This document shows, one piece after another, positions 1-21,862 of a stretch of DNA of 64,000 bases (the first letter of the stretch is position 1; each line of letters starts with the position of its first letter). The notes beneath the pieces are model-generated. The model did no database searches, was not told the DNA's origin, and worked only from the letters and a program-made list of their open reading frames with translations. Source of the DNA: Aurantiochytrium sp. KH105 (taxonomy: Eukaryota; Sar; Bigyra; Thraustochytrida; Thraustochytriidae). The DNA lies in assembly GCA_003116975.1 (NCBI GenBank), contig BGKB01000124.1, forward strand, positions 1 to 64,000, written 5' to 3'. The position numbers and the translations under genes were made by a program.

Positions 1-1138
1 GCAGCCACCAGGGACAGCGCGTCTCCTCCTTGCGCCCTGGGCCCCCAGCCAGCCAGCCAGCCTGCCAGCTGTCAGCCCCCAGGCCGCTCTGGCGCAGCGC
101 GCGATGCTGACCCTAGCAGCAGCAGCATCCTCGAGGCGGCTCTCGCGGCGCGTGCCGCAGCTTCGACATCTCTCCTCCTTTTCCCTTCGCCCCTTTCCTT
201 CTGCACACTGCCGCCTCGATTCCCAGAAAGAGGGTGTGCGCTTGCAAGTAGAACCCGGCCGCAGCCGCTGCGACCTTGGCCAACTCGCTCGCTCGCTCGC
301 TCGATTGATCGGTCACCGAAGCAAGAGAGCTCGCAGCGTAGCGGACCGACGCGTAGCCTGTTCGTGCCGCACCAACAGCGGCTCACTCCATGCGCCGGCG
401 TCAGCAGCACCGCGCCTGCCAGCCTCCCCTACTCATCAGCCGCGACTGCCTCGCGCTCCTCATGTCCCCGTCTGCTTCTTTCTTCCCCAGACACTGGGCA
501 GCATCTCGCTTCGGAGAATATCCGGCGCTTACGGAGAAACTCAGGTGTAATGAGAATGTGGAGCCTCCTTTACCCGGCCGACGAGAAAGTTTCTCCGGTC
601 GATCCTCGCAAGCAGCCAGATGCAGAGCGCGAACGATCTCGTGGGTGGGCTCGGCTCGAGGCAAGCGCGCGCGTGCTCGTGCGCGCTCGTACGTACGTGT
701 GGCGCACCCTCCTGCGCTCACTTCGCTGCGCGCCCTTCTTGCCTGCTCTCGACCCGCGCGGCGTATTGGGCGATCGGCTAACGAGCTGAAATTAGACGGT
801 CGTTATCGCCTATCTGCCTGCTGTGCGCTTGCGGCGTCGACATCAAGCGCGAGACGCTCGTAGAGAAGCCGCGCTAAACCAACAGCGCATCCGCCTTGCC
901 CTCGTGCACGTGGTGCCAAGTTTCTCTGGCTGCCGCGCCGCTGCGGTCTCGGCTCCTTTCGCTCGTCGCTTGACAGCGTGCTCTCTCTCGCCGCCAGATT
1001 CCCGTCGTCATCTTGGAGAAAGACGTGTCGACGTTGAATCAGCTGCAAGCGTATACTGGTCCCTGTAGAGCATTAATTTGAAGTTGTGCTCGTGAGGAGG
1101 CCGCGTAAAAAGTTCTTGAGTGCAACGACGTTAAGACG
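1..1138. other. 5' flank of the LRR-kinase gene, no gene seen
   Basis: GC-rich sequence with CTCG runs near 285-305 and CGTACGTACG near 690-700. The open frames here are short, rich in Arg, Ser and Ala, and overlap on both strands, so I treat them as chance. One plus-strand frame from 104 starts like a mitochondrial targeting peptide but has no recognisable continuation. The last 100 bases before 1139 are less GC-rich and probably hold the promoter and 5' UTR of the next gene. Confidence 0.4.
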
Positions 1139-4100
1139 ATGAGCGACGAAGATGAGCTCAACAGAGCGATCGAGACAATCGAAAACGGCGCGACAGAAAT
1201 CGAGTACGTATATGACAGATTGTGAGACCTCCCAAAGTAAGAGCTGACCACAACTCATGTACGCACGTACGCACGCATGGGATGCGACGTAATGCAACCC
1301 TTGACGCGGTTTCGTTCATCTTGGCGGCTCATGTTATGACGAGCGCAGTCTTGGCGAGAATAATATCGGCGACAAGGGCGCCACAGCGCTGGCGAACGCA
1401 CTCGCAAACAATGGGTCACTGCAGTCGCTAGAGTAAGTCATTGCGACAAAGTGAAAGTGGGGCCAGAAGCCCAAGAAGCAAAGAGCTGACCACAACTCAC
1501 GTACGCACGTACGCACGCATGGGATGCGACGGAGGATGCGACGGAATGCATCCCTTGACGCGATTTCGTTCATCTTGGCGTCTCATGCTATGACGAGCGC
1601 AGTCTTTATAGCAACAAGATTGGCGACGAGGGCGCCACATCGCTGGCGAACGCACTCGCGAGCAATGAGTCGCTGCAGACGCTATAGTAAGTCATTGCGA
1701 CAAAGTGAGTGGGGCCAGAAGGCCGAGAAGCAACAAGAGCTGACCACGATCCACGCACGCACGCACGCATGAGATGCGACGAACTGCAACTCTTGGCGCG
1801 ATTTCGTTCATCTTGGCGTCTCATATTATGACGAGCGCAGTCTTGGCGGCAACAATGTCGGCACAAAGGGCGCTACGGCGCTGGCGAACGCACTCACGAG
1901 CAATAATTCGCTGCATAAGCTAGAGTAAGTCATAGTGAAAGTGGGGCCAGAAGCCGAAGAAGCAACAACAGCTGACGACACCCACGTACGCACGCACTCA
2001 CGCATGTGATGCGACGGACTGCAACTCTTGGCGCGATTTCATTTATGTTGGCGTCTCATGTTTTGATGAGCGCAGTCTTGGCGGCAACAATATCGGCGCA
2101 GAGGGCGCTACGGCGCTTGCGAACACACTCGCGAACAATGAATTGCTGCATACGCTAGAGTAAGTCATTGCGAAAAAGTGAGTGGGGCCAGAAGGCCGAG
2201 AAGCAACAAGAGCTGACCACAACTCACGCACGCACGCACATATGATATATGATGGAATGCAACCCTTTGCGCGATTTCGTTCATCTTGGCGTCTCACGTT
2301 ATGACGAGCGCAGTCTTAATAGCAACAATATCGGCGCAGAGGGCGCATCGGCGCTGGCGAACGCACTCCAGAGCAATGAGTCGCTGCAGACGCTTAAGTA
2401 AGACATTGCGACAAGGTAAAAGTGGGGCCAGAATGCCGAGAAGCAACAAGAGCTGACCACAACTCACGCACGCACGCACATATGATATGTGACGGAATGC
2501 ATTCCTTGACGCGATTTCGTTCATCTTGGCGTCTCTTATTATGACGAGCGCAGTCTTTATAGCAACAAGATCGGCGCAGAGGGCGCTTCGGCGCTTGCGA
2601 ACACTCTCGCAAACAAGGAGTCGCTGCAGACGCTGGAGTAAGTCATTTCGACAAAGTAAAAGTGGGGCCGGAAGCCCAAGAAGCAACAAGAGCTGACCAT
2701 GATTCACGTACGCACTCACGCATGGGATGCGATGGACTGCAACTCTTGGCGTGATTTCGTTCATCTTGGCGTCTCGTGATGTGACGAGCGCAGTCTTGGC
2801 GGCAACAATATCGGCGCAGATGGCGCTATGGCGCTAGCAAACGCACTCGCGGACAATGAGTCGCTGCAGACGCTATTGTAAGTCATTGCGACAAAGTAAA
2901 CGTGGGGCCGGAAGCCCAAGAAGCAACAAGAGCTGACCACAGCTCACGTACGCACGCACGCATTGGATGCGACGGACTGCAACTCTTGGCGCGATTTCAT
3001 TTATGTTGGCGTCTCATGTTATGACGAGCGTAGTCTTTATAACAACAATATCGGCGCAGAAGGCGCCACGGCGCTTGCGAACACACTCGCAGACAATGAG
3101 TCGCTGCATACGCTAGAGTAAGTCATTGTGACAAAGCGAAAGTGGGGCAAGAAGGCCGAGAGGCAACAAGAGCTGACCACAACTCACGCACGCACGCACG
3201 CACGCACATATGATATATGACGGAATGCAACCCTTTGCGCGATTTGGTTCATCTTGGCGTCTCATGTTATGACGAGCGCAGTCTTAATAGCAACAATATC
3301 GGCGCAGAGGGCGCAACGGCGCTGGCGAACGCACTCGAGAGCAATGAGTCGCTGCAGACGCTAAAGTAAGTCATTGCGACGAAGTGAAAGTGGGGCCATA
3401 AGCCCAAGAAGGATGCAACAAGAGCTGACCACAACTCACGCACGCACGCACATATGATATGTGACGGAATGCAACCCTCTGCGCGATTTGGTTCATCTTG
3501 GGGTCTCGTGATATAACGAACGCAGGCTTGCCGGCAACAACATCGGCAACAAGGGCGCCACGGAGCTGGCGAACGCACTCGAAAAGCACGAGTCGCTGCA
3601 GACGCTAGGGTAAGTCATTGCGACAAAGTAAAAGTGGGGCCGGAAGCCCAAGAAGCAACAAGAGCTGACCTCATCTCACGTACGCACCCACGCATGGAAT
3701 GCGACGGAATGCAACCCTTGGCGTGATTTCGTTCATCTTGGCGTCTCATATTATGACGAGGGCAGTCTTTATAACAACAATATCGGTGCAGAGGGCGTTA
3801 CGGCGCTAGCAAACGCACTCGCGGACAATGAGTCGCTGCAGACGCTAACGTAAGTCATTGCGACAAAGAGTGAAAGTGGGGCCAGAAGCTCAAGAAGCAA
3901 CAAGAGCTGACCACAGCTCATGTACACACGCACGCACGGGATGCGGCGGAATGCAACCCTTGGCGCGACTTCGTTTATCTTCGCGTCTCATGTTTTGACG
4001 AGCGCAGTATTCGCACCAACAATATCGGCGACGAAGGCGCCACAGCGCTGGCGAAAGCACTCGCGGGGAACAGAACGCTGCAGACGCTAACGTAAGTTTC

Positions 4101-7100
4101 GAAGATAGGCTGTTGAAGTCTGCGCCATCTTTTTCCTGACAATTCCAAAACAGCATCAATCACAACAATCCTGCTCTCGAGGCCGCTCTCAAGCGCAATC
4201 GGGCTTTGTACAAAAAGAGTCTGACGCCTCTCATGCAAGCGTGCAAGAAGGGCGATGTTACGAGGGCAAAAGCACTCGTAGCGGACGGGGCACACATCGA
4301 TGCGCGTGACAGCTTGGGCTTGACCCCAATGGTCCATGCTTGCAATGCCAGCGATGAAAGAACGAGTCTGATCCTAGCCAAGCTTCTTTTCAAGATGAGC
4401 GTAGGCCTTTCGAGCGAGTCCCTCGGGCTGAACAAAGCCCTTGCGCTTGCTTCTTCCGGGGATCGCACGGAGCTATCCGTCTTTCTTTCTTTCGTGCACT
4501 CGCTCCCTCTCGCAATTGCAGACACCAAGACGGCGCGAAACGTTGCACTCAAGCTTTTCAGATCAGGCGTGCACACAGCCAGGACGGCTCGCGGCCTTTT
4601 TTTCTCTCGTCTTTCGACGCTTGGAATGAGCGATATAGACCAGCGTATTGCGTTCGTGAAAATGTTCGCTGTCGAGCCAGGGATGAGCGCTCTAGAAGCG
4701 CTCGCTGCGCAAGCCTCGCTCGCCCGCAAGATGCGTACCGAGATGCGTACCGAGACGCGCAGCGCGGGCACATTCGAGCAATTTTTATCGCTGCAAGACG
4801 AAATTGCAAAAGCGATTGGGCCCAAAAGTCCGGTCGCTGTTCTTGCAAAGTTCGACGCGCAGCAGGAGAATGCAAAGAAAAAGGTTGAAGATTTTGAGAC
4901 ACTTCAAGAGCAAGTCCGCGTCGCACCGGAGCGAGCGCTCGAACGGGATCAAGCTCGAGAGGAAGCTGTACGACTTATCGAAGAAGCTTTGGCGGACGGA
5001 ACTGAAAGCGAGCTTGAAAAATTCAGAAAGGAGTTGGATCCTGAGAAAGTGCTTGACAGCTTTCGAGAGCTGTACTGCGGTTTGGTCGCCGGCGAACCCA
5101 CGATCACCCTTCCACCAGATATTGTGATTACTTCTGAGCGGGTATATGAATCTACGCATAAAGCCCACGATGCCCTCAAGGCATGGATGGAGCGATATAA
5201 GACACGGCGTGCGTATCAGCGCACCGTCGCCGCGATGGACAGACTGAACGAGAAAGCAGCATGTGCGACCATTCTCATGTACCCGAAGAAAAGACGCGAG
5301 CTGGCGCCCCACATTCGAGCTATTGAAGATGCGCTCACGGAGGAAGTAAACGTTTTGTGTGCTGCGGATGCAGATGCGGATGCGGATGCGGATACGGATG
5401 CGGCGCAAAATTCTGTCCTCGAGGCACTTCAACTCGCATGGACAACTATGACCGCATTCTATGAGCGTTTTCTAGCATTTAGCATTATGCGCTTGAAATC
5501 CGCAGCAATGGTACTCGGGCAATTGCTCTCGCGTCTGAAGCCTGGTCTCTCATCCCCGAGCACCGAAGAAGTACAGCGTCTGTTCAATATTATTCAAAGC
5601 AGGACCAGAAAGCGCAAGCGTCTTGCCCTCGATCTTGAAGAGGCCCGCGAGGATGCTAGGAGAGGCACGGAAGAAGCCAAGGCGAGGGTTGTAGGTCTTG
5701 AGGAAAAGCTAACTCAGATCGAGAGCGTGTACAAGCTGGACAGCGAGCTTCGCAGAGCGCGCGCGCGCGTACTGCGCCATGCGGAGGAGCATTATCCCGA
5801 GCTTCTCTCTGATCGAACGTGGCTTGAGCGCATCGACGTGACTGATCCTGCCACTCAGAAGTTATCTGAGCTGGGGCTTTTGCTCTCAAACGCCAAGCGC
5901 AAAGATTTTCAGGAACTCGCAGACCTTGCGCCGAGTTCTGGCAAATCTGTGCTTCAAGTCCGCGACTCGGACGGCCACGTGTTCGTGCTAAAGTCTTTTC
6001 ACCTTGCTAGGGAGGAATGGAGCAGTCGCTTTTACCGCCAAGTCACAGCGCTTGCACAACTCCAGTCGGCCTATATTGTGCGCATACAGGGCGTGTTCAT
6101 GCAGGATGCACGTGAGGGCTACATTTTAATGCCCTTTTACGAAGGCGGCGATCTTGCTACTTGGATCGTCGATAATCCTCATGCAGACTTGGCGACGCGC
6201 AGACGCATTGCTGTCGGTCTTTTGAGCGGCCTGCACGATCTGCACTCACGAGGCCTTGTGCATTGCGATATCAAGCCAGGAAACGTCTTTCTTGCAAAGG
6301 GTCTGTCACCGGTGCTTGGGGACTTTGACGGCGTCCAGAAGCACGACGTGACCATGACGCAGCCTTTGCAGACGACGATTAAATACATGGCGCCCGAGCT
6401 GCGCAACAGAAATGTCGACAAGGTTCAACCTGCCGTGGACATGTTCTCTGTCGGCGTGGTTCTCGCGGAGCTCTTCGAGGACGCAGAGATGTCTGACGCA
6501 ACTCAATCGCTCATTTCGGATCTGCAATCCGCAGACCCGAATCAGCGGCCCACTGCGCTCGAGGCTTTGCGGCACGAGGCCTTTCAGGTCGAGCCTGTGA
6601 AGGTCGCCTCATGTACAATTTGCCTTGACATTTGGCCCGTCAGTGAGGGCGTCTCTTGCGCTGACGGCCACTTTACGTGCAAAGAGTGTCTGAGCGAGTC
6701 GGTTCGCGCCGCTGCTCAGCCTCAGGCTCACGTCAACGTACGACGGGATGGAAGCATGCATTGTATCACGCCGGACTGCAATCTGCTTCTCTCGGGTGCA
6801 ACCATCAGTGCTGCTTTGCCAGACGAAGAGTTCGTAGCATTGCTCAAAATTTTGCGTGAGCACTTTGAGCGAGATGCTGCAGTCGAGCAAGAGCGCCAAG
6901 TGCAACAACGCGTTCAAGCTGCGCTGCAAGACTATGGAGAGGAGTTTGAGGTCCGCAATCATCTCCGCATCATTCAGGCAGAGGTCCTGACGCTGTCCTG
7001 TCCGCGATGCAAGCAGGCCTTTGCCGACTTTGAAGGCTGCTGTGCATTAGAGTGCGCCGCTTGCCCGTGCCACTTCTGCGCATGGTGCTTTGAGGATACG

Positions 7101-7343
7101 GGCAACGACTCTGATGCTTGTCATCGACATGTGGCAAGCTGCACGTCAAAGCCCAGGACGGAGACGGACGCGTTTTTTTCTAGTATGGACGTCGTGCAGA
7201 GTGCCTGGGTCAAGCTTCGGGCTGATCGACTTCAATATTATCTGCGCCATAAAATCGCGAATGAAGCCACACGCGACGCTGTTTACGAGAAGCTGACGCC
7301 GCTGCTGACGCCTGATATCGTGGGTTCGCACTTTATTCCCTAA
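1139..7343 (+). CDS. LRR-ankyrin-coiled coil-protein kinase-RING/IBR protein, 14 exons
   Basis: Spliced gene predicted to give 1420 residues. Exons: 1139-1203, 1349-1432, 1603-1686, 1841-1924, 2076-2159, 2314-2397, 2554-2637, 2794-2877, 3034-3117, 3282-3365, 3526-3609, 3766-3849, 4008-4091 and 4154-7343. All introns are GT..AG and phase 2, and the frame stays open to TAA. Exon 1 encodes an acidic start (MSDEDELN). Exons 2-13 each encode one 28-residue RI/NLRC3-type leucine-rich repeat. The last exon encodes two ankyrin-like repeats (about 380-440), a long helical region (about 580-930), a kinase domain (about 950-1170: VLK lysine, HCDIKPGN loop, DFD in place of DFG, APE) and paired zinc modules (about 1177-1355: CTICLD..DGHFTCKEC, then CPRCKQAF..GCCALECAAC..FCAWC). 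The second module resembles the RING2/IBR part of RBR ubiquitin ligases. The layout suggests a sensor that signals by phosphorylation and ubiquitin transfer; that role is inferred. Confidence 0.82.
1349..4091 (+). repeat. Tandem array of 12 exon-plus-intron units (84-bp LRR exons)
   Basis: Twelve units start at 1349, 1603, 1841, 2076, 2314, 2554, 2794, 3034, 3282, 3526, 3766 and 4008, a spacing of 235-254 bp. Each has an 84-bp exon. The introns between them are about 150-170 bp and look like copies of one another, sharing the donor GTAAGTCATTGCGACAAAG, a GTGGGGCC(A/G)GAAG block, GAGCTGACCAC, an ACGCACG run, and the end GACGAGCGCAG. Intron 1 (1204-1348) has the same 3' portion, but the intron before the last exon (4092-4153) does not. 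So the duplicated unit was intron tail plus exon plus intron head. Confidence 0.9.
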
Positions 7344-8160: not shown

Positions 8161-9916
8161 GTTCCAGATTTTGCCTCAGGGGACTCGGGCTTGGCTAGCT
8201 TGGCCTACGCACAATTGTTTGGCCAGAAAGCAAAGTTCCGCAGCGCCAGACAGCTGTCCTTGAGCACACGGGCCTGGGTGTCGGAAAAGGTACTCCGATC
8301 TCCTGCCTGGGGATTTGTCCCAGTATCCATCCACCTTGATGGCAGCGCACCATTCCTCGTCCTATAAAAGCAGACCTCCGTGGACCTGCGCCGGCACAGC
8401 GCATTAGCCCCCTGCATGCCAGCGCAGCGCTCTGTTGATGCGGCACTCGTGCTCGACTGTACACTTCGGCTCGCAGACATCGTCCATCGTATTATCGCAG
8501 TAGCTCGTACGCTTTGCCCCCCATCATGGGCCGCAGACCAGGTCGGCGATGGCCTCGTCGTACGACTCGCGCACGTGTGCACTCACTGTCAAGATGAGTA
8601 ACTTTGCTTTGGACTTTGGCGAGCGCTTGCATACTTCTGGCCTACCCCCTCATCTCTTGAGGGAAAACAAGCCACAACAGTGAACGAGGGGGTTACGACC
8701 GAGTCTTTGGGACAAGCACGGGTGCTAAGCGCGAGCGTGAACGAGGACGCAGCACGAGGGCTTGGGCGGCCGCGCGCATGCGGACGAGGGGAGCGCGGAC
8801 GACCACCTTCAGGGCCAAAGAGAGAGATAGGAGAGAAAATTAGAGAGACCTGCAGAAACGGAAAGCGAAAGAACGCGCGCCGAGATGGCGGCAAAACGTG
8901 ACCGCGCCGGCGGACTTTGTGCAGACCACAACGGAAGCCCAAGGTCGAGGTCGTGGCTGGCTAGCTAGCTGGCTGACTCGCGAAAGTGCTCCAGCCCCTG
9001 TTCTCAAGCAAGGTCGACCGAGACGGAACCTCGAGTTCTGGACGATGTGTCCTTGCTCATCATTCACGATCACGATCCACACGACAAAATCATGGCCGGG
9101 CAGTTGATTGAAGTGATCCAACCATGACTCTGCTAAGTTGTCGCGACGGAAATGAAGACCAAGAAAAAGGACACAGACCTCCCTGCGATTGACGTTTCTG
9201 TCGCCGTATACAGGTGCGCGCAGTGCAGTGCAGTGCAGTGCGGCATTGGCAGGGGACGAGGCTCATTCTGCCGCGCGTCGGCCAGTCTCCTCATCGCGCA
9301 CAGAATCATCTTGGCGCCGCGCCCCCAAGCCTATTGCGCCCGCCAGCCCGCCAGCTTTCCGCTGCCGAACTAACCTGCACCGCAGACGTGCGGGAAAGCT
9401 TTTTTTCATGCCAGACGGAAGTTGCACGCTCTTTGGCGCTGCATGCTAGGACCTCGAAAACCTGATCTTTTCACGCGGTCTGAACTTTTTTTGTTGTCCA
9501 TGGTCTCCGAAGACCCGGCATTCGCGGACGGCAGCGACTTCGTTTACAATGCATCATGTGTGCACTCCTTTTCTACAGCAAGTATCTCTCTGCCGCCGCT
9601 GCTGCGACACCAAGTATCACGTCGGCATGTCCAACGCACCACCACGCGCAAGTTCGCGACGGCGAGCAGAACCCCCTGCGAGGCACGCCTCGAGCTGCGC
9701 AATAGCGCGCAGAACTTTGACGAGCGATTCGCTCTCGTGAATCACCCGCGAGCGCAACGCGAGCGCAACGCGAGCGCAACGCGGGCGCGTGCTCTGTCTC
9801 GTTTCTCCTTTGGCTACAGACCCAGAACGACGCTCGCTCGGGAAGGGGAGTGCTCGTGCACGCGCGCGCGCACAAGCAAGAAGGGGGAGGGAGAGAGGGA
9901 AGCGCTCGCGCGCGCG
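8161..9916. other. Intergenic stretch with one coding-like fragment
   Basis: Mostly GC-rich sequence with a GTGCA microsatellite at 9225-9243 and no convincing gene. One minus-strand segment, about 9010-9165, reads like protein (LHFRRDNLAESWLDHFNQL, then FVVWIVIVNDEQGHIV) and then runs into low-complexity frame. It may be a relic or an exon of an unrecognised gene. The frame open upstream of 9917 on the plus strand is Arg-rich and not credible as coding. Confidence 0.35.
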
Positions 9917-11680
9917 ATGTCGACCACGAAGTCGCTCGCCAATGTTCTCCTCGAACAGCCGATGGAGAGACACGCGATGGTGGCAGGCCTCGCGCGAGAT
10001 CGAGTGATGATGATGCAGCGCGAGGAGCAAGCTGATTCTAATTTCTTTGGTGACGAACAGAGCGCGAGCTGCACCGCAAACAGCTCGCAGTCCTTGTCAC
10101 GGAGCCACCAAGGCCTAGTACCCCCGGGCGGCGTGCAGGCGCCCCTCGACCTTGCCCCCGCGAACGTGGTTCGTTGGTCGGATTTCCACACCGAGGTCGA
10201 ATGGGATTCCTTCAGTGGGGCTGTTGGCTTCGGCGACGTCCAGGTCATGGCTCGCGACTTCAGGACGAGGACCAGCACCGAGTCCACCGTCAACGAAGTC
10301 ACTGCGTTCTTACGCTTTTCTGCCGGGTTCATAGATCCATTAAAGGAGATAATGCTTGACAAGGAGGCTGATACGGCAATCAATTCGTTCACGCCAATGG
10401 ACATTACCCAAGAATTCGAATTGGCGTCCATCGGACATCGTGTGGACCTGGCGTGGACGCGGAAAGTAAATTCTGATGATGATCGCAACAATGCTGGTAT
10501 CCCCACCCCAGATGACGAATCCCGCGCGCGCTTCCTCGTGCATGAACACAAGTCGCCAGGAAAATTTCCCTATGGCCTCGCTGCTGATGATTTCGACAAA
10601 ATTGCCAAGGCGTTCATGCAAAATACGTCTTCATCTCTCGACGAGGCCAAGGAAACCGTCAACGGTGCCTGGGAGTTGGCCTGTGACGACATGGTCGACT
10701 ACTGGGGTCTCGGCGCGAGCCTCACCGAGCAAGAGACTGTCATGCGTTTTCGCTACCCAATCATACAGCTCTACGTTACCATGCTGCGCTCTTTCTGCAA
10801 GTACGGCGTTCTCTCCACCACCGACAGGACTTGGTTTTTCAAAATTGACGAAAATAATGTCCTGCACGTTTCGGACGTGTTTCACTCCACGGGAACAGGC
10901 CGCGAATCAATGCGATACGCCTACGCATGCATGCTGCTCCGTGCCGCGACCGGCTCGGCGCGTTTGACGCTCACCGACGACCAGTCACAGGCCATTGCGC
11001 AGACTAACATTCGAATCGGGTCTCTCGAGTGGACCAAGATGTGGCGCCGGTTCGGCTGGGACGGCAACGGCACGGGAATAACAGCAAGCGGAGGGCATTG
11101 TGGAGCCAGTGCCGCCTTGCCCGCGGACATGGAAGCTCTGCGCGAGACGCTTCCACTCAAGAGCGACCTCCATTTCCCCTACGCGGGCGGTCTGCTCGAC
11201 GTCATCAAGAGATATCCTGAAGGTCACTATAGCTTCTCGATCCGCGTTAATACGGGCGGAGTTGACACGGTCGTCAAGGTTATGACCCCGTCAAAAGACC
11301 CCCGCGTGGAATTGATCTTTTGGCATGAGATGGACGTCTATCTCGCGCTGCGTTCCCTGTGGGGGACGTATGTGCCCTGGTACCTCTACGGCGGCCGCCA
11401 CATTTTCAACGACCTCATCATCGCCACCATCTACGCCGGCGAGTCGCTCGATGCGAGTGCCCTGAACGATGACGTTCGAGAGAAGGCCTGGGCGGCGCTC
11501 ATGGCTCTGCACGAGGTCGGCGTGGCGCATCGCCACGTGCAGCTGGAGAACTTTATCATGGATGACACCGGCGCCGTCCGCATCGTCGGCTTTGCTCGCG
11601 CCGAGATGAACGCCTCGAGACATAACTATCTGAAAGATTGCGAAGCTTTCGACCGCATCTTCTTTCGCTCGGACACCTGA
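9917..11680 (+). CDS. Crinkler-like protein: PD-(D/E)XK nuclease-like domain plus degenerate kinase-like domain
   Basis: 587 residues from the ATG at 9917. The frame opens earlier, at 9422, but those extra 165 residues are Arg/Ser/Ala-rich and look untranslated. The middle (about 10160-10850) has a beta-rich region with RVDLAW, then FLVHEHKSPG, then YPIIQLYVTMLRSF and a GVLSTTDRTWFF strand. The D, E-x-K and Q pattern and the strand after it resemble the nuclease domain of Crinkler-type effectors. The C-terminus (about 11230-11650) is kinase-like: VVKV supplies the usual lysine, HEVGVAHRHVQLENF replaces the HRD loop, and VGFARAE stands where DFG should be, so phosphotransfer is doubtful. It ends shortly after that segment, so the lobe is short. 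No N-terminal host-targeting motif or secretion signal is evident. The family assignment is from pattern memory only. Confidence 0.55.
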   Translation: MSTTKSLANVLLEQPMERHAMVAGLARDRVMMMQREEQADSNFFGDEQSASCTANSSQSLSRSHQGLVPPGGVQAPLDLAPANVVRWSDFHTEVEWDSFSGAVGFGDVQVMARDFRTRTSTESTVNEVTAFLRFSAGFIDPLKEIMLDKEADTAINSFTPMDITQEFELASIGHRVDLAWTRKVNSDDDRNNAGIPTPDDESRARFLVHEHKSPGKFPYGLAADDFDKIAKAFMQNTSSSLDEAKETVNGAWELACDDMVDYWGLGASLTEQETVMRFRYPIIQLYVTMLRSFCKYGVLSTTDRTWFFKIDENNVLHVSDVFHSTGTGRESMRYAYACMLLRAATGSARLTLTDDQSQAIAQTNIRIGSLEWTKMWRRFGWDGNGTGITASGGHCGASAALPADMEALRETLPLKSDLHFPYAGGLLDVIKRYPEGHYSFSIRVNTGGVDTVVKVMTPSKDPRVELIFWHEMDVYLALRSLWGTYVPWYLYGGRHIFNDLIIATIYAGESLDASALNDDVREKAWAALMALHEVGVAHRHVQLENFIMDDTGAVRIVGFARAEMNASRHNYLKDCEAFDRIFFRSDT

Positions 11681-19828: not shown

Positions 19829-20759
19829 CTAGGCCAAGGATTTAGAAACCATACTGGCGGACATTGCATCTGTAACGATGCCAGCTTCTTCGATGAGCTG
19901 CTGGGGCGGCTGGCCCATGCCATCTGAAATTTGGTCAACAAAGCTAAGCACGTTGCGTTTGAGATCGCGTGTGGAGATCTGAGCAAAATATGTGGACGGA
20001 CACAGAACATGAAAACGGTCAGCACCTCTCTCTCGCTTCTTCTTCTTCTTCTTCTTCTTTCTTCTCGGTTCTCGTTTGAGAAAGTCAAAATCGACGTGTA
20101 GCCTTTACAGGATTGGAACCTACCTCCCAGAATTTGCGCTCCTGGCGCAGGTCTTGCAGCGACCGTTCCTCGCCGGCATCTGCAGTGCCCGAAGTGGCGG
20201 CAGCAGAGGCGGCTCGCAGTTTGGCGACCTCAGCCTGCGCCTCAACGAGATCAGCTTGAGCGGCCTCGATTTCGTCGTTCAAAACGTCGTCCGCAGGCTC
20301 GCTCTCCAACTGAGATTTGCAGGCAAGCTCGGTCGCAAGTGTACCGCGTTCCTCGATCAAAAGAGTCTCGGCCTCAGCGATGCGCATCTGGAGCGCTTTG
20401 CAAGTAGCCTCGCGGTCTTCGGCCGACTCGTCGTGGTCTTCTTGCGTGATCCAAAACAGTGCAGCGCGCCCTTCGACCTTTTCCTGCAGTGCCCCGCGAC
20501 TCACAAGCGCCGTAAGCGTTGTCTTGATGATGGGATGAGAGATGGTTTTGAGCAGATTTTCAAACACCTTGGTCGAGTTGTATGGCCTGCATTGAGCGGC
20601 CATGTACGCGAGCACGGTGGCTTCGGCGTCGACTGCACCTGTTTTGGCCTTTGGCTTGGACTTTGTTTTCCCCTTGGTCACACTTTTCGAGCTCTTGAGA
20701 GTCTGTCTCGACTGCGTAGACCTCGATGTGGCCACGCTCCGCGCGTCCTCTTCGTCCAT
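19829..20759 (-). CDS. HOP2: Hop2/TBPIP homologous-pairing protein, two exons
   Basis: Exon 1 is 20759-20124 and exon 2 is 19978-19829. The intron has a GTAGGT donor and CAG acceptor and is phase 0, giving 261 residues. Residues about 45-110 form the winged-helix TBPIP domain (VLAYMAAQCRPYNSTKVF, then ALVSRGALQEK, then FWITQED). A coiled coil follows (about 120-190), then ERKFWE, and exon 2 supplies the expected C-terminal helix (LKRNVLSFVDQISDG, then IEEAGIVTD). Hop2 pairs with Mnd1 and assists Dmc1/Rad51 strand invasion in meiosis, in the nucleus. A short Lys/Ser-rich leader precedes the domain. The reading frame is also open upstream through a minisatellite to 21473, but the ATG at 20759 fits the family. 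Confidence 0.85.
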
Positions 20760-21190
20760 CTTGTCACCGGAAAGGCGTCTCGATACGTTGCCGTCCAAAC
20801 AGCGCGCGGCAACTCGACGTACGCCACCGCTGTCCTCTTTGCAACGAAGCCTACTTGCTGTCGAAGCAGCGCACAGCGACCCGACGTACGTCTCCGCTGT
20901 CTTCGTTGCAATCAAGCTTCCTTGACGTCTCCTTTGGGGTTTGAAATTTCCTGATGCTGTTGTGGGTCTGCAACCCAGTAGGAGAGCATCTCTCCTCAGC
21001 AAAGCAAGCTCAATATTTTTGAAAAGAGCGAACACAATCGCGCGCGACGTTGGCGCGAGGAATCGACGGCTTGAATGACGCGGACCTTGGCATCGTAGTA
21101 TTGCGATGCACAAGCTTGTTGGCGACGACGACGAGACTAATCCTATAAAGATGCACGAGACGAGGCTGTTGTTTGCCAACGACCGACGGG

Positions 21191-21862
21191 AGGACAATGT
21201 CTTGGGCAGGACAATGTCTGGACAGGACAATGTCTTTGCAGGACAATACCTTGGCAGGACAATGTCTTGGCAGGACAATGTCTTGGCAGGACAATGTCTT
21301 GGCAGGACAATGTCTTTGCAGGACAATGTCTTTGCAGGACAATGTCTCGGGTGGGACAATGTCTTGGCAGGACAATGTCTTGGCAGGACAATGTCTTGGC
21401 AGGACAATGTCTTGGGCAGGACAATGTCTCGGGTGGGACAATGTCTAGGCAGGACAATGACTAGGCAGGACAATGTCTTGGGCAGGACAATGTCTTGGCA
21501 GAACTATGTCTTGGCAGGACAATGTCTTGGGCAGGACAATATCTTTGCAGGACAATGTCTTTGCAGGACAATGTCTTGGGCAGGACAATGTCTTTGCAGG
21601 ACAATGACTAGGCAGGACAATGTCTTGGCAGGACAATGTCTTGGGCAGGACAATGCCTTGGGCAGGACAATGTCTAGACAGGACAATGTCTTGGGCAGGA
21701 CAATGTCTTGGGCAGGACAATGTCTTGGGTAGGACAATGTCTTGGGCAGGACAATGACTAGGCAGAACTATGTCTTTGCAGGACAATGTCTTGGGCAGGA
21801 CAATGTCTTGGCAGGACAATACCTTGGCAGGACAATGACTAAGCAGGACAATGTCTTGGCAG
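21191..21862. repeat. 41-unit minisatellite, 16/17-bp unit
   Basis: Counting by eye gives 41 consecutive units built on AGGACAATGTCTTGGGC, with 16-bp (TTGGC) and 17-bp (TTGGGC) forms mixed, plus TTTGC, TAGGC and CGGGTG variants. Each unit contains GACAATGTC, an almost perfect inverted repeat (GACA-n-TGTC). The consensus has no stop in several frames, which is why long false frames run through it on both strands. It lies between the 3' end of the SYLF gene (50 bp away) and the start of Hop2 (about 430 bp away), both on the minus strand. Confidence 0.95.

Follow-up and report, generated by a model that had tools for sequence, protein, structure and literature searches.

We analyzed the first 64,000 nucleotides of contig BGKB01000124.1 of Aurantiochytrium sp. 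KH105 (the window), in which a predicted gene on the forward strand joins twelve equal leucine-rich repeat (LRR) exons to one large exon for a protein kinase and a RING-like zinc finger. This gene is probably one member of a large, fast-evolving thraustochytrid family in which a fairly constant kinase/RING-like C-terminal exon is combined with a variable repeat array, which in most members that were read has one LRR per exon, the LRRs binding changing ligands and new surfaces being selected. The sequence shows that each 240-bp unit of exon plus intron is duplicated and exchanged within and between loci, shifting array length, and that gains or losses of units keep the reading frame because every LRR exon is 84 bp long and in phase 2. 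Under the proposed explanation, the ligands of the LRRs would be diverse and changing, with microbes or viruses as their most likely sources; selection would favor new LRR surfaces, and the kinase/RING-like part would signal or mark targets. Splicing is most likely constitutive, and diversification would act between generations, in the germ line or clone.

The LRR array and its gene

The window array occupies positions 1349 to 4091. Each of its twelve exons is 84 nt long, in phase 2, preceded by AG and followed by GT, and each encodes one 28-residue LRR. The exons lie at 1349..1432, 1603..1686, 1841..1924, 2076..2159, 2314..2397, 2554..2637, 2794..2877, 3034..3117, 3282..3365, 3526..3609, 3766..3849, and 4008..4091. 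The eleven GT..AG introns between them are 151 to 170 bp long and are near-copies of one another. Tandem Repeats Finder (TRF) reported positions 1239 to 4097 as a single 240-bp tandem array of 11.8 copies (score 3361), and a repeat search with a 300-nt reference found 12 copies at 63 to 100% identity; the tandem repeat signal of the array is far above chance. These results bear out a sequence-only reading of the window, which had described twelve equal, in-frame exons separated by near-copies of one intron and had pointed out that equal length and phase preserve the frame when the number of units changes.

The spliced frame is open from an ATG at 1139 to a stop ending at 7343, and the gene is predicted to be spliced at these sites to give a product of 1426 amino acids. 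Exon 1 (1139..1221) encodes MSDEDELNRAIETIENGATEIEYVYDR plus 2 nt. Its donor is at 1222, with an alternative phase-2 donor at 1204; we preferred 1222 because protein P0041 of the thraustochytrid stramenopile Hondaea fermentalgiana continues ATEIEYVYDKF-L as this donor predicts. The last ~110 bp of intron 1 (1222..1348) are homologous to the repeated intron, and the TRF array begins within it. Both the 3' end of the twelfth LRR exon and the short unique intron behind it (4092..4153) are similar to the terminal exon in other LRR-type members. The large C-terminal exon (4154..7343) starts weakly ankyrin-like, continues with an unassigned middle part and the protein kinase, and closes with the RING-like zinc finger, another Cys/His cluster, and the stop TAA. 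All of these features are on the forward strand, as is the 5' flank (1..1138), which is common to other family members.

The LRRs are of the ribonuclease inhibitor (RI)/RanGAP type, with 28-residue LxxLxLxxNxI...L repeats. Pfam LRR_6 matched eight stretches of the array (E 1e-62), and relatives in the PDB include ribonuclease inhibitor, NLRP, and RanGAP1 proteins. The kinase was detected by Pfam (Pkinase, E 7.8e-31) at approximately residues 579 to 767 of the open reading frame (ORF) starting at 4206; by eye, the motifs HCDIKPGN and APE are present and the DFG position reads DFD. In the tail, the Cys/His spacing is invariant in all 19 aligned family members (C26 C29 C41 H45 C48 C51 C76 C81), and a second Cys/His cluster occurs in the same 19 sequences. 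With respect to the RING1-IBR-RING2 layout with a catalytic Cys that defines RBR-type E3 ligases, Pfam IBR_1 scored E 4.5. NLR proteins such as NLRP3 have a NACHT domain; the Pfam matches of our gene included neither NB-ARC nor NACHT, and those of the C-terminal exon included no ROC or COR domain, which places the gene outside both the NLR and the LRR-ROCO classes. Inspection by eye, without a predictor, showed neither an evident signal peptide in exon 1 nor an evident transmembrane segment between the LRRs and the kinase, the features of plant-type LRR receptor-like kinases. The protein is a putative receptor.

A large family with arrays of variable length

We searched the 76-Mb assembly (367 contigs) for relatives of the window gene. 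The C-terminal part returned 50 rows; after merging, these represent a family of at least 44 loci, including one internal fragment. One 240-bp exon-intron unit had at least 306 matches in the genome, and the repeated intron alone (query 2638..2793, GTAAGTC...GCGCAG) had at least 295. In the part of the assembly that was read, a profile scan detected 26 arrays with a total of 221 exons, each of 84 bp, and AG and GT are in place at 218 of the 221; these counts come from a fixed 81-nt profile without stops, which misses broken exons and exons of other lengths, and possible collapse of near-identical units in the assembly would also affect them. Between the exons of the family lie introns of 124 to 218 bp (n = 195, median 158). 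Of the 25 other arrays, 10 are also preceded by the exon 1 motif; for several of the 25, no upstream sequence was present.

Nine arrays are complete at both ends, meaning that exon 1 and the C-terminal part were both found, and they contain 4 to 17 LRR exons. Naming loci by contig, with the window contig as C124, the counts are 4 in C357 (one of these with a non-AG acceptor), 5 in C243, 5 in C85, 8 in C293, 9 in C229, 9 in C248, 10 in C87, 12 in the window, and 17 in C44. The arrays on C101, C303, and C313 are stubs of one or two exons at contig ends. Many loci lie near the end of a contig: the array side is within 20 kb of a contig end in 28 of the 44 C-terminal loci, and the opposite side in 6 of 44. 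When the contig is 100 kb or longer, the array side is near the end in 15 of 29 loci versus 2.2 expected, and the 3' side in 0 of 29. The motif TTAGGG repeated four times was not found anywhere in the genome, and no telomere repeat was seen by eye at 20 contig ends (3 of them N). Because no telomere repeat was found, an assembly break at repeats is as good a cause of this placement as a subtelomeric position.

The best named protein relatives are two kinases of Hondaea fermentalgiana, P0001 (83%, covering 85% of the query) and P0002 (68%, covering 53%), and a second protein search added the putative protein kinases P0040 to P0043 of the same species. All six have the same C-terminal part as the window gene. 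P0041 and P0043 also have the same 28-residue LRRs, numbering 7 and 4 by eye and 4 and 2 by a strict pattern; these repeat numbers differ from that of the window, with the reservation that they come from predicted proteins and that P0043 is partial. Separately, a comparable order of domains is found outside Hondaea in P0157, an environmental (JGI) protein with LRRs, a kinase, and a tail that is RING/IBR-like.

Turnover of units and re-pairing of gene parts

The contigs C8 and C218 carry C-terminal parts that are 96.0% identical over 3102 nt, yet they have 9 and 13 LRR units, respectively. The last unit of each has no GT at 84 nt, leaving 8 and 12 canonical 84-bp exons. No inner unit of either one has a clear partner, and hence an orthologue, in the other; the best exon match (92%) and the best intron match (95%) fell in different pairs. 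Units 4 to 6 of C293 are identical or one base apart, and between units 2 and 3 of C137 there are 4 base differences in the exon and one in the intron; judged by this similarity, both sets are young tandem unit duplications. Of 194 units, 67 had their closest relative within their own gene, compared to a mean of 8.6 and a maximum of 21 in shuffles, and the remaining 127 had it in another gene.

The window locus has a sister contig, C137, which encodes a PP2C-like protein that is 98% identical. The outer flanks of the two contigs are 94.2% identical over 4632 bp and 95.9% identical over 852 bp, and the 1.6 kb adjoining the gene are 78.5% identical. At the position of the window gene, C137 bears a different family member, with a C-terminal part that is 54% identical and at least 8 LRR exons, which is truncated by the contig end. 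Beside this member, the window kinase gene itself is present in C137 only as an internal fragment (C137:6192-8012) without array or 3' end. Each of the pairs C8/C218 and C124/C137 may represent alleles, homeologues, or duplicates. Repeat turnover by recombination is well supported by these patterns in the assembled sequence. The sequence-only reading had proposed that recombination changes repeat number between strains; the change in number holds among paralogues (4 to 17 exons; 9 versus 13 units in C8 and C218) and on one sister contig, a comparison made within one assembly, of paralogues and of two homologous contigs, rather than between strains.

Gene parts also appear in new combinations. 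Positions 1 to 1236 of the window are 94.2% identical to C44, and positions 464 to 1236 are 93.1% identical to C87, whereas the C-terminal parts of these two loci are merely 55 to 56% identical to that of the window. For C357 and C229, the 5' similarity is 80.5% (window positions 347 to 1236) and 81.6% (441 to 1236), and the C-terminal parts are 83% and 76% identical to the window's, respectively. The 5' end of C357 is 95.4% identical to that of C293, and the C-terminal parts of the two are 57% identical. In 6 of the 20 C-terminal loci first read (C359, C57a, C57b, C195, C32, and C61), a single-exon array of near-identical ankyrin repeats takes the place of LRR exons. All six have a common 3' end; we read the repeats in C359, C57b, and C61, whereas C57a, C195, and C32 are labeled as ankyrin type from the common 3' end alone. 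In a maximum likelihood tree of 23 C-terminal parts out of the 44 loci, the ankyrin label takes two changes, and well-supported branches force two. The alignments and the tree show that 5' ends, LRR arrays, ankyrin arrays, and C-terminal parts have been re-paired between loci, and LRR and ankyrin N-termini were switched at least twice.

Variation within the LRR exon

Across the 221 exons, residue entropy was 3.81 bits at position 3, 3.50 bits at position 4, and 2.41 bits at position 6, and over 195 junctions it was 3.06 bits at the residue whose codon the intron interrupts. Values at positions 9 and 21 were near 2 bits, and 18 of the 24 positions besides 3, 4, and 6 were below 1 bit. Combinations of the four residues (positions 3, 4, 6, and junction) took 163 distinct forms among the 195 junctions. 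The hypervariable residues come after the LxL of the repeat, and in ribonuclease inhibitor-type LRRs the face after LxL points to the ligand; the variable codons are expected to face the concave surface of the LRR domain.

Because unit pairs are not independent of each other, we used disjoint subsets for comparisons of close units. In 12 disjoint near-identical pairs, defined by no more than four differences in the exon apart from codons 3, 4, and 6 and with the three junction nucleotides excluded, 46 of 108 nt differed in codons 3, 4, and 6, compared to 7 of 864 nt in the rest of the exon and 18 of 1872 nt in the intron, where gaps are excluded from the distances. The hypervariable codon set was picked from the same family data. 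When 300 random sets of three other codons were treated in the same way, a mean of 2.1% and at most 13.3% of their nucleotides differed (mean 3.4 pairs).

Points that weigh against selection for new recognition surfaces

Several observations count against the proposed family of diversifying recognition genes. The first concern codon change. Over all pairs, the ratio of nonsynonymous to synonymous change (dN/dS) was 1.67 for codons 3 and 4, a saturated value, and 1.01 when codon 6 was included; the remaining codons had a ratio of 0.41. Where codons 3, 4, 6, and 9 differed by one nucleotide in a set of 18 disjoint pairs, the change was nonsynonymous in 17 cases and synonymous in 5, and the neutral expectation is 18.4 nonsynonymous changes out of 22. 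Another 22 of these codons differed by two or three nucleotides. The proportions of nonsynonymous (pN) and synonymous (pS) differences in codons 3, 4, and 6 were 0.36 and 0.39 in the 18 pairs and 0.42 and 0.47 in the 12 closest pairs; for codons besides 3, 4, 6, and 9 in the 18 pairs they were 0.03 and 0.09, and for the other codons in the 12 pairs 0.003 and 0.02. These figures rest on small numbers and are averaged over mutational paths. The hypervariable codons of close pairs have approximately equal pN and pS, and amino acid selection is not proven.

The second set of points concerns the protein. Of the ankyrin-kinase-RING part that the sequence-only reading had placed downstream of the array, the kinase held, and the other two domains came out weak: ankyrin at the start of the C-terminal exon had a Pfam E of 1.9e-4, under the cut-off, and RING in the tail had a very weak match to zf-RING_2 (E 0.066). 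Structure prediction for the zinc-finger tail was poor (mean predicted local distance difference test score, 54.5). Finally, expression, splicing, and ligand binding of family members are all putative, and an immune function would be by analogy with other systems.

Changes in codons 3, 4, and 6

A local process, whether short-tract templated conversion or targeted mutation, might rewrite codons 3, 4, and 6 while leaving the rest of the unit nearly untouched. We regard it as a possible but rather unlikely account, one that may act jointly with the selection proposed above. It draws on the concentration of differences in the 12 close pairs, which exceeds anything seen for random codon sets; those pairs were picked for similarity outside the hypervariable codons, which lowers their background, and the codons themselves were chosen from the same family. 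It draws further on pairs with shared introns. In 37 pairs with a near-identical upstream intron, which ends approximately 4 nt from codon 3, 31.5% of the hypervariable nucleotides differed compared to 2.3% of 13 interspersed conserved nucleotides, and in 37 pairs with a near-identical downstream intron the values were 38.4% and 2.3%; these pairs are dominated by C293 and C357. We rejected a single crossover as the cause of such differences, because codons 3, 4, and 6 should then stay linked to at least one flanking intron, but they differ despite a near-identical intron on either side.

Synonymous differences are also raised in these codons. In terms of pS, they reached 0.39 versus 0.09 elsewhere in the 18 pairs and 0.47 versus 0.02 in the 12 pairs, but pS averages over codons with several changes. 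Counted as single-nucleotide changes per synonymous site, there were 5 per 29.3 sites in codons 3, 4, and 6 and 27 per 334 in other codons for the 18 pairs, and 3 per 18.0 and 4 per 224.5, respectively, for the 12 pairs. Amino acid selection alone does not predict raised synonymous differences. Exact blocks of codons 3, 4, and 6 are common to 115 unit pairs, whereas shuffles gave 16 on average and never more than 33, and 85 of the 115 pairs are between genes. Common descent would also yield shared blocks; the pairs that share a block most commonly have 7 to 11 differences elsewhere in the exon, and 17 of the 115 have two or fewer. A similar pattern in PRDM9 zinc fingers is held to be shaped by selection and unequal exchange, according to the portions of PMC3890296 available to us.

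For these codons, short-tract block exchange combined with selection maintaining diversity would fit the comparisons best, and directed mutation of the hypervariable codons could still play a part. A bolder version, which we offer as a tentative and rather unlikely idea, is that a protist may rewrite its ligand-contacting codons (3, 4, and 6, next to the exon junction) by local unit-to-unit copy-and-paste, moving a limited alphabet of blocks among hundreds of units that are otherwise homogenized, while whole units, 5' ends, and LRR or ankyrin arrays are swapped onto a common kinase/RING-like tail. If true, this would be a combinatorial repertoire rebuilt by recombination in a unicellular eukaryote.

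Splice sites and alternative splicing

The sequence-only reading had also suggested that splicing could vary the repeat number within a cell. The symmetrical LRR exons could in principle be joined in any selection, giving many isoforms per gene. Because all exons are equal in length and phase, exons could be skipped without loss of frame, a property that permits skipping and does not show it. There are precedents, in that LRR exons of brown-algal ROCO genes (PMC11378527) and of human NLRP3 (PMC6642158) are reported to be alternatively spliced in the available portions of those papers. Against this, donors (mostly GTAAGTC) and acceptors (mostly GCGCAG) are near-uniform across family introns and single out no exon, and all 194 introns tested stop the frame if left unspliced, because a phase-2 donor GTAA reads TAA. 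We consider alternative splicing an unlikely source of the diversity, compared to the change between generations proposed for the family.

In Hondaea, proteins P0040 and P0042 include a translation of this intron end at their N-termini, RDFVHLGVS[C/Y]YDERS. Because these predicted proteins carry the 3' end of the repeated intron, that intron probably predates the split from Hondaea.

Explanations without selection or with mobile introns

The array could also be a plain multi-exon repeat gene, subject to unequal crossing over and concerted evolution and without adaptive value, whose variable positions are simply unconstrained. The near equality of pN and pS in the hypervariable codons of close pairs would agree with this, as would the position of many loci near contig ends, where recombination may be high. 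However, pN and pS in these codons are both several-fold above the pS of other codons, beyond what mere lack of constraint would give, the other codons are conserved (dN/dS 0.41), and the splice dinucleotides are kept in nearly every exon. An origin without adaptive value seems to us quite improbable.

A further idea, that mobile elements of the introner type entered an LRR gene and became its repeated introns, is very improbable, and we rejected it: near-copy introns are abundant in the genome, but the exons are as clearly repeated as the introns, the intron copies among the matches listed sit on contigs with LRR units or family C-terminal parts (C122, C316, C348, C339, C183, C164, and C106 without base-by-base reading), and the 3' end of the intron is readable beside an LRR at the N-termini of P0040 and P0042.

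Comparison with known repeat systems

Equal-length exons that encode one repeat each in a single phase, variable repeat number, and exchange between genes are found in this family as in Tetrahymena and brown algae. Tetrahymena belongs to a different supergroup, PRDM9 repeats have no introns between them, and brown-algal LRR-ROCO genes were reportedly treated by Zambounis et al. in 2012, as cited by a later paper. The following comparisons are limited to the portions of each source available to us. In Tetrahymena, young LRR genes built from tandem 90-bp exons number in the thousands, with nearly 50,000 such exons across 10 species, and for them unequal crossing over has been proposed (PMC6564038). 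Like the thraustochytrid family, these genes have equal-length LRR exons with a strong phase 2 bias and repeated exon/intron units, and some of their LRR arrays are fused to a protein kinase (PMC6564038). The youngest Tetrahymena genes are enriched in subtelomeric and pericentromeric regions (PMC6564038). They differ in exon length (90 bp rather than 84 bp) and form a far larger set, and in the available portions of the paper we saw no counterpart to the kinase/RING-like exon with its ankyrin alternative (PMC6564038).

The brown-algal LRR-ROCO genes, also from stramenopiles, encode one LRR per phase-2 exon, undergo exon shuffling, have diversifying sites on the LRR concave face, and are proposed immune receptors (PMC11378527). 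Their exons are 72 bp long and encode a 23-residue LRR, and they carry a ROC-COR GTPase where the thraustochytrid family has the kinase/RING-like part (PMC11378527). Human NLR proteins such as NLRP3 have RI-class LRRs on short modular exons that can be skipped; the available portions of the source describe no fast array turnover or large recombining family (PMC6642158). PRDM9 resembles the window gene in its 84-bp repeats, variable copy number, and variation at ligand-contacting residues, and it differs in that the repeats are zinc fingers, not LRRs (PMC3890296).

Exon-modular LRR turnover is already published for Tetrahymena and brown algae and is not a new idea; our literature searches found no publication on thraustochytrid LRR exon-array genes. 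The family would add a further case, in another protist lineage, in which one LRR per phase-2 exon lets recombination rebuild a recognition surface and leave the gene intact. It pairs one kinase/RING-like tail with two kinds of variable array, an exon-modular LRR array and a single-exon ankyrin array, and some of its units are so young that single duplications and block differences can be read directly. Two questions thereby become testable: whether recognition repertoires that change fast are maintained in protists, and whether selection by itself or a local exchange process generates hypervariable codons.

Neighboring reading frames

Downstream of the kinase gene, an ORF at 9422-11680 encodes 752 amino acids with a kinase-like end by eye, and it is one of many copies in the genome (75 rows in a search), a number of them with stops. 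In the Hondaea protein P0002, the kinase family is joined with a relative of the ORF, and the two genes may be neighbors in that species as well. Farther along, an ORF on the minus strand at 20085-21473 starts with a tandem CQDIVLPRHCPAKTLS-like repeat and may be a noncoding repeat.

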